From an uncultured Verrucomicrobiota bacterium (lineage in GTDB: Bacteria; Verrucomicrobiota; Verrucomicrobiia; Limisphaerales; UBA9464): DNA of 58,700 bases. Positions 1,177-25,540 of the stretch are shown here, one piece after another. The DNA is taken from positions 1 through 58,700 of the forward strand of contig CAIVQB010000126.1 of the NCBI GenBank assembly GCA_903907925.1, read 5' to 3'. The position numbers and the translations under genes were made by a program. The notes below the pieces were generated by a model. That model was not told where the DNA came from. It searched no databases and worked only from the letters and a program-made list of their open reading frames with translations. Positions within the stretch are counted from its first letter, which is position 1; each line of letters opens with the position of its first letter.

Positions 1177-1213
1177 TACGAAGTTTTTCGTTGATTCTAC
1201 GAATATCCTCGTA
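1177..1213. promoter_or_regulatory. Probable BlaI-type operators
   Basis: Two palindromic sites of TACGA/TCGTA type lie just before the BlaI-family gene. One is TACGAA-N4-TTCGTT at 1177-1192 (one mismatch); the other is TACGA-N6-TCGTA at 1198-1213 (perfect arms). BlaI/MecI repressors bind dyads of this general kind and autoregulate. TACATA at 1212-1217 could be a -10 box, but its spacing from TTGATT (1191-1196) is only 15 bp. Their presence argues that translation starts downstream of them. Confidence 0.5.
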
Positions 1214-1225
1214 CATAAAACGCTT

Positions 1226-1609
1226 GTGCCCCGACCAACGCTGCCCGACCCCACACCCGCCGAACTGGAAATCCTCCGGGTTCTCTGGAAGAAGGGACCG
1301 TCCACCGTTCGACACGTGGTCGAGGAGTTCGGTGACGGAACCGGATACACCACGGTGCTCAAACTCCTGCAGATCATGAAGGAAAAGGGTCTCGTAACAC
1401 GGAACGACAGTGAACGAACCCACGTCTTTACCCCCGCCCTTCCCCAGCACGAAACACAACGGCGACTGGTGATGGGTCTTCTGGAGCGGGCCTTTGAGGG
1501 ATCGGCCCAGGCATTGGTGATGCAGGCCCTCGCCGGACGGCCTCCGTCGCGCACCGAAACCACCGAGCTTCGCCGACTCCTGGATTCCCTGGAAAAGAAA
1601 CGCCCATGA
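1226..1609 (+). CDS. BlaI/MecI/CopY family transcriptional repressor
   Basis: Winged-helix repressor of the penicillinase-repressor family, 127 residues from the GTG at 1226. The preferred start gives PRPTLPDPTPAELEILRVLW at the N terminus, which matches the usual beginning and length (about 120-130 residues) of the family. An in-frame ATG at 1172 would place two operator-like dyads inside the gene, so it is less likely. The DNA-binding wing spans about residues 8-75 (AELEILRVLWKKGPSTVRHV through GYTTVLKLLQIMKEKGLV); the C-terminal part should dimerise. The stop overlaps the next ATG (ATGA at 1606-1609), so it is translationally coupled to the M56 protease that would be its sensor partner. 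It probably represses its own operon. Confidence 0.9.
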   Translation: MPRPTLPDPTPAELEILRVLWKKGPSTVRHVVEEFGDGTGYTTVLKLLQIMKEKGLVTRNDSERTHVFTPALPQHETQRRLVMGLLERAFEGSAQALVMQALAGRPPSRTETTELRRLLDSLEKKRP

Positions 1610-3312
1610 ACCCACTCCCCGCATTCACCCGTTCCCACCTGGCGATGAGTCTGGGCTGGACGCTGATTCATTTCCTCTGGCAGGGCACCGCCATCGCAGG
1701 GTTGACCGGTGCGGTGCTGTTGGCGCTGCGCTCGGCATCGCCACGGCTCAGGTACGCCGTCGCCTGTCTCGCGCTGGCAGCCCTCGCATTCGCGCCAGTG
1801 ATCACCTTCCTTGAGGCACCCATTTCGTGGACGATCGCGTCGCACCAGAACTGGTCTGAATCGGTCTCTCCCGTCACCCCAACGCTTCCATCGACGGCTG
1901 CGGACACTCACACGACCGACCGACCCCAACTTCGCTCGGTGATCCCGTGGGTCACCGTCGCGTGGCTTGTCGGCGTCGGCATCCTGGCGATCCGTCTTGC
2001 CGGCGGTTGGGTCCAAACCCAGCGCCTCCGCTTTGTCGGTGTCCACCCAGTCGAGGAACCATGGCCATCTCGGCTTCGTCACCTTCAGGAACGCCTGGGC
2101 CTCCGACGCCTCATCCCATTGCTCGAATCCACCCGGGTTCATTCGCCCATCGTCATCGGCTGGATCAAGCCGGTGATCCTCTTCCCACCGGGAATTATCT
2201 GCGGGCTGCCCCCGGCCCAGGTGGAAGCGCTGCTGGCGCATGAACTCGCCCACATCGTCCGACACGACGTGCTCGTCAACCTCTTGCAGCGCGTGGTGGA
2301 GACCGTGTTGTTCTATCATCCCGCCGTGTGGTGGCTGTCCGGCGTGATCCGCAATGAGCGCGAAGTGTGCTGTGACGAGTTGGCGGCGGAGGTCCTGTCC
2401 GACCGCACCGAACTTGCGCACGCTCTCGTCTCGCTCGCCGAACAGCAACTCACCGTCCCTGGACTCGCCGTCGCCGCGGATGGGGGACAGTTGGGTCAGC
2501 GTGTCCGCCGATTGCTTGGAAATTCGGCCGGTTCAGCCGCTTCGTCCTGGCCTTGGCGAACGCTGTATTTGAGTTTCGTCGTCGCGCTCATCGCGACTGG
2601 GGTCTGGCTCTGGCCGCAGGTGACAGCGCCCACGCTGTATCAATCCACCGCGAGGATTCAGCTCCCGCGGGACGTGGATCCGTTGAATCCCTCGACACCC
2701 AGCAGCTACTATCCGTACTGGCTCCAGACCCAGTTGGAACTCTTTCGCGGCAATGCGCTTTTGACCCACGTCGTGGCCAGTCTCGAACTCACCAAGAAAT
2801 GGGCCAGTCCGGGCGGCAATGTGATCAGCCAAAGTGAGGCCCTGCAACACCTGCGACGCCACGTCAAGGTTCGGCAAATCGCCAACACCTGGATCGCTGA
2901 AGTCTGTTTTGCGGATTCGAATCCACAGATTGCCGAGGAAGTCGCCAATAGGATCGCAGATGCCTTTCTCGAAATACGCCTTAGCTGGATTAACCGGCGG
3001 GCATTCGATCAATTGAACTTCTTCAGTAGAGAAGCACGGTCCGCGGAGGTCGAGATGGCGAACAAGATGAGGGATCTCGAAACCTTTGAGAAAGAAAGGC
3101 AGGCGGGAAAGACCTTCGAACCGGGAGCTCGAGAAACGTTGCAGTTGAAATATGATCTGGCCAAGAGCGCACTGGAGTCCGTCCTTTCGAAGGCACGGAA
3201 GGCCGACCTGAGTTCGAAGATCGGTGACCGGGATGCCCCGGGTGGGCCGCTCATCCTGGATCGTGCCATTCGCGCAGATCGACCCACGCGATGGGTCTAT
3301 CCGTCCGAGTAG
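1606..3312 (+). CDS. BlaR1-like M56 metallopeptidase fused to a Wzz-like domain
   Basis: Membrane sensor protease, 568 residues. TM helices lie near residues 15-41, 50-70, 112-132 and 319-338. The zinc motif is HELAH at 212-216, with the downstream NEREVCCDEL segment supplying the third ligand, as in BlaR1/MecR1. The C-terminal part (about 340-568) is not a penicillin-binding domain. Instead it reads like a polysaccharide co-polymerase (Wzz/GumC) ectodomain: YQSTARIQL, a LQTQLELFRGNALLTHVV segment, a L-R-HVKVRQIANTWIAEV segment, NPQIAEEVANRIADAFLEIR, and then a helical, probably coiled-coil stretch ending before RADRPTRWVYPS. The family predicts signal-induced cleavage of the repressor encoded just upstream. 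The ligand sensed is unknown; envelope polysaccharide or cell-wall stress is an inference from the Wzz-like part. Confidence 0.82.
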   Translation: MNPLPAFTRSHLAMSLGWTLIHFLWQGTAIAGLTGAVLLALRSASPRLRYAVACLALAALAFAPVITFLEAPISWTIASHQNWSESVSPVTPTLPSTAADTHTTDRPQLRSVIPWVTVAWLVGVGILAIRLAGGWVQTQRLRFVGVHPVEEPWPSRLRHLQERLGLRRLIPLLESTRVHSPIVIGWIKPVILFPPGIICGLPPAQVEALLAHELAHIVRHDVLVNLLQRVVETVLFYHPAVWWLSGVIRNEREVCCDELAAEVLSDRTELAHALVSLAEQQLTVPGLAVAADGGQLGQRVRRLLGNSAGSAASSWPWRTLYLSFVVALIATGVWLWPQVTAPTLYQSTARIQLPRDVDPLNPSTPSSYYPYWLQTQLELFRGNALLTHVVASLELTKKWASPGGNVISQSEALQHLRRHVKVRQIANTWIAEVCFADSNPQIAEEVANRIADAFLEIRLSWINRRAFDQLNFFSREARSAEVEMANKMRDLETFEKERQAGKTFEPGARETLQLKYDLAKSALESVLSKARKADLSSKIGDRDAPGGPLILDRAIRADRPTRWVYPSE

Positions 3313-3316
3313 TTCA

Positions 3317-3434
3317 GCTTCCAACCGCGCCCCGATCCATCGTGAACCGGACGTGAAGGTCACGCCTTGTTGCAGCTTGGAAGCGGCGGCCAACTCGCGC
3401 GCAACAAGGACGTAGATGGGGCTCGCGTGGAAGC
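3317..3434 (+). repeat. Dispersed intergenic repeat, copy B
   Basis: This copy is about 118 bp, in the same orientation as 809-926. It begins GCTTCC and ends GGAAGC, so the tips are short inverted repeats. The best conserved core is CTCGCGCGCAACAAGGACG, identical in both copies. It starts five bases after the M56 stop codon. Confidence 0.8.
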
Positions 3435-25390: not shown

Positions 25391-25431
25391 GTCCGAAAAA
25401 AACAGCCGGTCCAACCGACCATCGACGATTC

Positions 25432-25540
25432 GCTTCCACGCGAGCCCCATCTACGTCTTTGCTGCGCGCGAGACGGCAGCAGCTCGCGACTTGCAACGCG
25501 GCTTGATCGGCACGCGCGGTTCGCGATGGATGGAGTTCCC
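25432..25540 (-). repeat. Dispersed intergenic repeat, copy C
   Basis: This is an inverted copy of the repeat at 809-926 and 3317-3434. The conserved blocks, read on the minus strand, are CCATCCATCGCGAACCG, CGCGTTGCAA, CTCGCGCGCAGCAAAGACG and GATGGGGCTCGCGTGGAAGC. The last block is nearly identical to the end of copy B. The opposite tip has diverged and lost the inverted-repeat end. Confidence 0.75.

Follow-up and report, generated by a model that had tools for sequence, protein, structure and literature searches.

The frame at positions 1606..3312 (+) of the window (the whole 58,700-nucleotide stretch analysed here, from an uncultured Verrucomicrobiota bacterium) raises the question of what a BlaR1-like membrane protease would sense when its ectodomain resembles a piece of a polysaccharide export machine. 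BlaR1 and BlaI form a textbook antibiotic sensor. The original prediction described a BlaR1-type N-terminal half with a HELAH zinc site, a Wzz/GumC-like C-terminal half and no penicillin-binding domain, and proposed that glycan assembly rather than beta-lactam is sensed. In a partial search of the literature (titles and abstract openings), no prior description was found of this fusion, of the overwriting of its ectodomain reported below, or of its operator.

The frame is intact and encodes a protein of 568 aa with Pfam and NCBIfam matches, here named the M56-PCP fusion (PCP, polysaccharide co-polymerase). Its M56 domain spans residues 54-283 (Pfam PF05569, E 7.1e-28), and this region aligns with S. 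aureus BlaR1 (E 2.6e-4). The zinc motif HELAH, at residues 212-216 (2239..2253, +), and the third-ligand motif E253-V-C-C-D257 further on (2362..2376, +) align with the BlaR1 motifs H201EXXH and E242XXXD (PMC9834060), and HELAH, E253 and D257 are invariant across 21 aligned fusions. Hydropathy peaks were found at residues 23-41, 51-69, 111-129, 182-200 and 319-337. The last of these (2560..2616, +), which is also a helix in the predicted model, is the final M56 membrane helix and stands in place of the first membrane helix of a PCP protein (TM1). Residue 285 aligns with BlaR1 273, and the self-cleavage loop of BlaR1 comprises residues 271-289 (PMC9834060), placing a candidate self-cleavage loop at residues 283-301 of the fusion (2452..2508, +), within which the pattern A.G...R.RR is conserved. 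Cleavage in this loop is an inference by analogy, its placement resting only on the BlaR1 alignment. Pfam gave no match to a penicillin-binding domain in the fusion at E <= 1. The BlaR1-type half with its zinc site and the missing penicillin-binding domain therefore held as predicted, and the architecture and zinc motifs are established by sequence. The G+C content (1606-3309) is 64.4% in the M56 half and 57.0% in the PCP half, and that of the window is 62.2%.

The four motif strings quoted in the original prediction for the C-terminal half were found in the frame, in the order given. This half, residues 340-568 (2623..3309, +), gave no Pfam family match when its 229 residues were searched alone; NCBIfam returned EpsF (4.7e-5) and pepcterm_ChnLen (0.0078). 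A profile was built from the window PCP domain and 20 relatives (alignment A1, 21 fused domains); with it, PDB chains of Wzc were matched at 2.9e-13 and the window genome's own Wzc-type protein (G000 C45) at 2.6e-74, so the PCP similarity is far above chance. Among the 21 fused domains, NCBIfam matches were found to EpsF (16/21), the XrtA chain-length family (14/21) and eps_transp_fam (13/21). Against the PCP call, Pfam matches were weak, with GNVR in 4/21 domains and Wzz in 1/21 (E 0.07). The AlphaFold model of residues 319-568 (pLDDT 86) had as top Foldseek matches KpsE (8tsh, E 3.2e-9) and then Wzc (1.8e-8), and VIA-align gave Z 17.4 for Wzc 7nhr and Z 15.2 for KpsE; WzzE, at Z 10.7, was level with unrelated coiled coils such as HlyD. 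The full-length model of a long relative (L068, 752 aa, pLDDT 81) matched both Wzc and BlaR1 8exq. Since NCBIfam, the PDB profile, Foldseek, VIA-align and the long-relative model agree, the earlier fold call was right: residues 340-568 are a PCP domain (Wzz/GumC/Wzc-type; Wzc/KpsE-type) by profile, predicted fold and family context. A profile search of these residues had been named as the test that could refute the call, and it returned a PCP placement.

The window ectodomain is composed of a base and a shortened helical arm, and ends at a Pro/Arg motif. The PCP criterion of a base with a helical arm is met, with the arm shortened, but that of two flanking membrane helices, the second following a Pro-rich motif, is failed; the protein lacks the second PCP helix (TM2) and most of the arm. 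The short forms, found in the window's family, likewise have no TM2 and little arm and end at the Pro/Arg motif, while TM2 was predicted in 7 of 12 aligned long forms.

The fusion gene is preceded by a gene for a BlaI-type repressor of 127 aa (1226..1609, +; PF03965, E 1.5e-23), whose end overlaps the fusion start via ATGA. The GTG at 1226 was inferred to be the start of blaI because a longer frame from 1091 crosses two putative operator boxes. Box 1, TACGAAGTTTTTCGT, lies at 1177..1191 (+) and abuts a -35-like TTGATT at 1191-1196; box 2, TACGAATATCCTCGTA, with one mismatch, lies at 1198..1213 (+). The resulting layout around the -35-like element, TACGAAnnnnTTCGT-TGAC-n-TACGAAnnnnTTCGT, is shared with relatives, where it is also found upstream of blaI. 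No promoter was recovered at the blaI boxes by a consensus promoter scan, and the role of 1177-1213 as BlaI operators is inferred, without binding data. Exact TACGAANNNNTTCGT is unique in 4,606,554 bases, and the sole exact copy of TACGAAnnnnTTCGT in the 4.6-Mb window genome is the one at 1177-1191, so that the blaI-fusion operon is the only detected target. The BlaI partner, the boxes and the lack of another detectable target are likewise established by sequence. The only other one-mismatch match in the window genome was considered as a trans target and rejected, as it sits inside a coding frame. Two other M56 operons of the genome, read by eye, have different palindromes.

The same arrangement was found in the relatives. 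BlaI profile matches lie upstream in 21/25 fusion loci, with the ATGA overlap in 17; the four misses are two loci that begin at contig ends (G171 and G237) and two partial genes (G274 and G241). A box was found within 700 bases upstream in 20/25 loci. When 18 fusion genomes were searched with a one-mismatch pattern, TACGAANNNNTTCGTA, a box was directly upstream of the fusion operon in 16. In G171 and G237 it sits on a different contig, in both cases at the contig end, and in G171 it precedes a BlaI-like frame (at the G237 site BlaI presence was not checked); these two boxes likely belong to fusion operons cut by contig ends. Non-self forward matches of TACGAANNNNTTCGTA numbered 26 in the 18 genomes, against 60 for a reversed control pattern. 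Fifteen of the 26 were inspected and had no gene in common; one match, in G192, is separated by 5 bases from another BlaI-like ORF. Since sites with two or more mismatches cannot be distinguished from noise, weak trans targets remain possible. A relaxed box (TACGA, six bases, TCGT; within 700 bases upstream) was found in 60/70 named M56 loci without a PCP domain, two in tandem in 33/70, over a background of 0.0098 per kb elsewhere in the same 70 loci. Within the order, 7/9 M56 loci without a PCP domain also have the double box, and it precedes M56 genes in other phyla. These relaxed-box counts, together with the single genomic site, indicate an old, widespread and apparently self-targeting module.

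For the proposed survey of the same fusion, 320 genomes of the order were searched with a whole-fusion profile at E <= 1e-75, scoring three candidates per genome; 25 had matches reaching both halves. The frames of G274, G703 and G241 are partial or interrupted, and in G182 and G171 roughly the first 80 positions of the model are missing. A sample of 387 genomes of the phylum (two candidates per genome) gave a spanning match only in the window genome, suggesting restriction to one order; this was rejected by a sample of 384 genomes of the class (E <= 1e-105), in which one of five spanning matches, G862, belongs to another order. The G862 fusion fell below the A1-profile threshold (it did not reach 1e-12), and was accepted by a single-protein profile match (7.6e-16, bias 15) and NCBIfam EpsF (2.4e-16). 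A PCP domain was also found at E <= 1e-3 in 8/80 named M56 loci (the best 80 of at least 554 candidates), with titles reading Verrucomicrobia, Verrucomicrobiales, Verrucomicrobiae or just 'bacterium'.

Beyond blaI and the fusion, no conserved neighbour was found in more than three genera among 25 neighbourhoods, many of them cut by contig ends. Upstream in six loci of one genus lie an M56-like gene and an additional, divergent BlaI-like gene. Near the window fusion, no EPS gene was seen by eye among the ORFs of the first 9 kb. In G210 (L177 9544-12201) the BlaI frame continues into M56-PCP as one open frame of 885 residues, and its BlaI reading seems frame-shifted about midway; G182 is similar by eye. 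A repeat of ~100 bases with ~80% identical copies occurs in the window at 811-924, 3319-3432 and 25430-25531. The first two copies are direct and flank the blaI-fusion operon, and the third, at 25.4 kb, is inverted. If the flanking repeats recombined, the operon could be lost, a possible factor in its patchy presence.

That patchiness makes it necessary to consider whether the window member is a decaying relic, with a shrunken ectodomain, lost tracking of the resident Wzc (see below) and a fusion that relatives lack or have in broken form. The window protein has neither TM2 nor most of the arm, the G274, G703 and G241 frames are damaged as described, and no fusion was found in seven other genomes of the window's genus at E <= 1e-75. 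However, the window frame, motifs, boxes and BlaI are all intact, and short forms are present in five genera of the family, with zinc motifs invariant in those aligned. We regard a relic as unlikely.

An unexpected pattern was found in the long forms. The PCP relatives in the same genomes are Wzc-type: Pfam Wzz, GNVR and P-loop domains were found in 5/5 tested in the order, and the TIGR01007 tyrosine autokinase cut-off was passed by all three PCP-kinases tested (G157, G000 and G862). In a tree of 60 PCP domains, the same-genome PCP-kinase was sister of the fused domain in 8/12 long forms; G192 and the pair G210/G182 share one clade with their own kinases, and G091 does not. A single clade of fused PCP domains was rejected (p-AU 3.05e-5 with 11 rows, 2.7e-4 with 12 rows). 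In a quick tree of the M56 halves, the long forms fell in a group (support 91) that also included a single non-PCP M56 (G107), and the short forms were placed elsewhere without firm support. The M56 halves of G192 and G157 are 73% identical and their PCP halves 45%, the latter being 57% (G192) and 66% (G157) identical to their own Wzc.

This resemblance is regional. Private matches to the own Wzc exceeded those to every control kinase in 9/12 long forms, tied in G097 and G182, and fell below the controls in G091. The top match was the own-genome PCP-kinase for the arm in 9/12 long forms and for the base in 3/12; the arm misses were G210 and G182 (rank 2, near ties) and G091 (no tracking). In separate trees, computed without F_G171 and without the partial kinase of G218, the own kinase was nearest in 8/10 for the arm and 2/10 for the base. 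By sequence, the long-form arm tracks the resident Wzc. A sharp tract was found in G157, with 77-100% identity to the own Wzc over windows 136-316 (best other, 43-67%). In the flanks, before 121 and after 331, identity to the own Wzc is 17-47%. Nucleotide identity to wzc is 80-97% in the tract (third positions 67-93%) and 42-66% outside it (third positions 30-63%). Since the tracts are not identical to wzc, misassembly is an unlikely source; the likely explanation, inferred from sequence, is that the resident wzc was the donor in gene conversion or in repeated recapture. Over 388 residues, the PCP half of G862 shares 61.6% identity with the same-genome protein that passes the autokinase cut-off (447 bits), against 53.5 bits and 20% for the best foreign PCP in the set, and its operon has the double box. 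This case was found after the arm-tracking pattern had been noticed, and part of the gap is plain kinship, since the set had no other kinase from that order. The fused PCP of G171 (C119, C206) matches a second-class PCP protein of its genome, not the first-class one, so the donor gene differs between lineages.

The arm similarity could instead be a neutral by-product of recombination between similar paralogues, without functional meaning. In favour of this, tract location varies among genomes (mainly base and end in G171, arm in G157 and G191), as random conversion predicts, and the clustering of private matches was significant in only 5/12 long forms (p < 0.05, uncorrected). Against it, the arm, which in E. 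coli Wzc recruits the Wza exporter and touches Wza D1 with its forearm (PMC12881504), is matched in several families, the whole PCP half of G862 resembles its own Wzc, and one FliF case, given below, behaves alike. Neutral recombination remains possible.

The window protein itself does not track: its own Wzc ranked 15th of 46 matches, beat the best other kinase in 1/14 windows, and had 2.8% private matches against a control mean of 2.8%. No arm tracking of the own Wzc was found in the other short forms tested either.

Other M56 proteins carry parts of other machines. Within the order, secretin domains were found in L021 (1.5e-18) and L025 (1.7e-26), and YscJ/FliF domains in L023 (4.3e-34) and L027 (2.5e-13). 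The window genome has a second M56 in a 1219-residue frame with a secretin domain (C60, 2.2e-22), and M56 proteins of other phyla bear SecDF P1-head, GWxTD and carboxypeptidase-regulatory domains, among them a 2072-residue protein of a Planctomycetaceae MAG with a C-terminal SecDF P1-head domain (L078 9959-16174). In G052, the FliF-like part of an M56 frame shares 67% identity with the FliF of its genome, compared with 51-56% for the FliF proteins of four others, with the caveat that own and foreign FliF are themselves 60-77% identical. The fused FliF pieces of G134 showed no own preference (37% own against 35-38%; 47% own against 36-48%). After the M56-FliF frame of G052 (L283 531-4051, -) comes a second frame, which has a further FliF-like piece.

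Our main reading, to which we give a probability of about 0.5, is that blaI and the fusion form a self-regulating sensor switch for an envelope machine; its signal, its output and the cleavage of BlaI are inferred, without expression, cleavage or binding data. In this view, BlaI dimers would occupy the two boxes in the blaI promoter region, and the fusion would be a BlaR1-like membrane protease with a cytoplasmic zinc site and a periplasmic PCP ectodomain. The ectodomain would meet or lose a partner in the resident exopolysaccharide or capsule export assembly, which may be the Wzc ring, the outer-membrane exporter or the growing chain; the protease would then be released, BlaI cut and the operon derepressed. 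Because the derepressed target is its own operon, the amount of receptor would itself be what is set. The resident export assembly is the most likely partner, since the Wza-recruiting arm is the part most often overwritten in long forms. With TM2 and most of its arm lost, the window member could read no more than the part of the machine near the membrane. The proposal that glycan assembly is sensed instead of beta-lactam is a reasonable inference whose function has not been shown, and it is sharpened here by an operator found only at the own operon and by a long-form arm that tracks the same-genome Wzc.

Two further explanations concern the role of the PCP part. It could be an output: the fusion would join the resident Wzc/Wzy machine as a working or modulating co-polymerase, with M56/BlaI setting its dose by feedback. 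No second operator target was detected, TM2 is predicted in 7/12 long forms and the arm is matched to the resident Wzc in 9/12, all consistent with this possibility. On the other hand, the window form is without TM2 and the greater part of the arm, there is no kinase part, and sibling M56 proteins bear other machines in part, which favours a sensor role over an output. Alternatively, the ectodomain could be a mere oligomerisation scaffold, the true signal being another, such as membrane stress or a small ligand. Wzc works as an octamer (PMC12881504) and BlaR1 as a domain-swapped dimer (PMC9834060), but a scaffold alone would not require an arm matched to the resident Wzc, and we regard this explanation as unlikely.

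Returning to the sensor switch, its implications extend beyond this locus. The same protease-repressor module, with boxes conserved across phyla, bears parts of export machines as ectodomains, and if the receptor reads the assembly of the exopolysaccharide exporter, this assembly would have a readout in transcription. That the resident gene overwrites the ectodomain leads to the testable claim that receptor and machine must match, and the secretin, FliF and SecD versions hint at a wider sensing design. A bolder reading, which we hold to be less likely than not, is that certain BlaR1-like receptors form a class that watches the trans-envelope machines of their own cell through a carried piece (Wzc arm, secretin, FliF part or SecD head). 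Gene conversion or recapture would keep this piece matched, so that the receptor joins or competes for the assembly, and the protease would report the assembly state to an operator controlling only the receptor.

Among known systems, other M56 ectodomain fusions (secretin, YscJ/FliF, SecDF P1, GWxTD and carboxypeptidase-regulatory) have an M56 half in the same wide clade but differ in the ectodomain; machine tracking was checked in them for FliF only, with one case for and one without preference. With KpsE the fusion shares the best Foldseek E-value (3.2e-9, 8tsh) and a Z of 15.2, yet its sequence relatives are Wzc-like, unlike KpsE and Wzz, and WzzE reached only Z 10.7. The Wzc autokinases share its fold (Z 17.4 to 7nhr), and by sequence the PCP-kinases of its order are its closest relatives. 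It differs from Wzc in having no kinase, in using the last protease helix as the first PCP membrane helix and, in the window form, in lacking TM2 and most of the arm. BlaR1-BlaI and MecR1-MecI share with the fusion system a repressor adjoining an M56 protease, the HEXXH and EXXXD motifs and a membrane plan with a C-terminal ectodomain, and the long-form model matches BlaR1 8exq. In contrast to BlaR1 and MecR1, the fusion ectodomain is a PCP domain, with no penicillin-binding domain match, and in contrast to both of their systems the boxes were detected only at the own operon.
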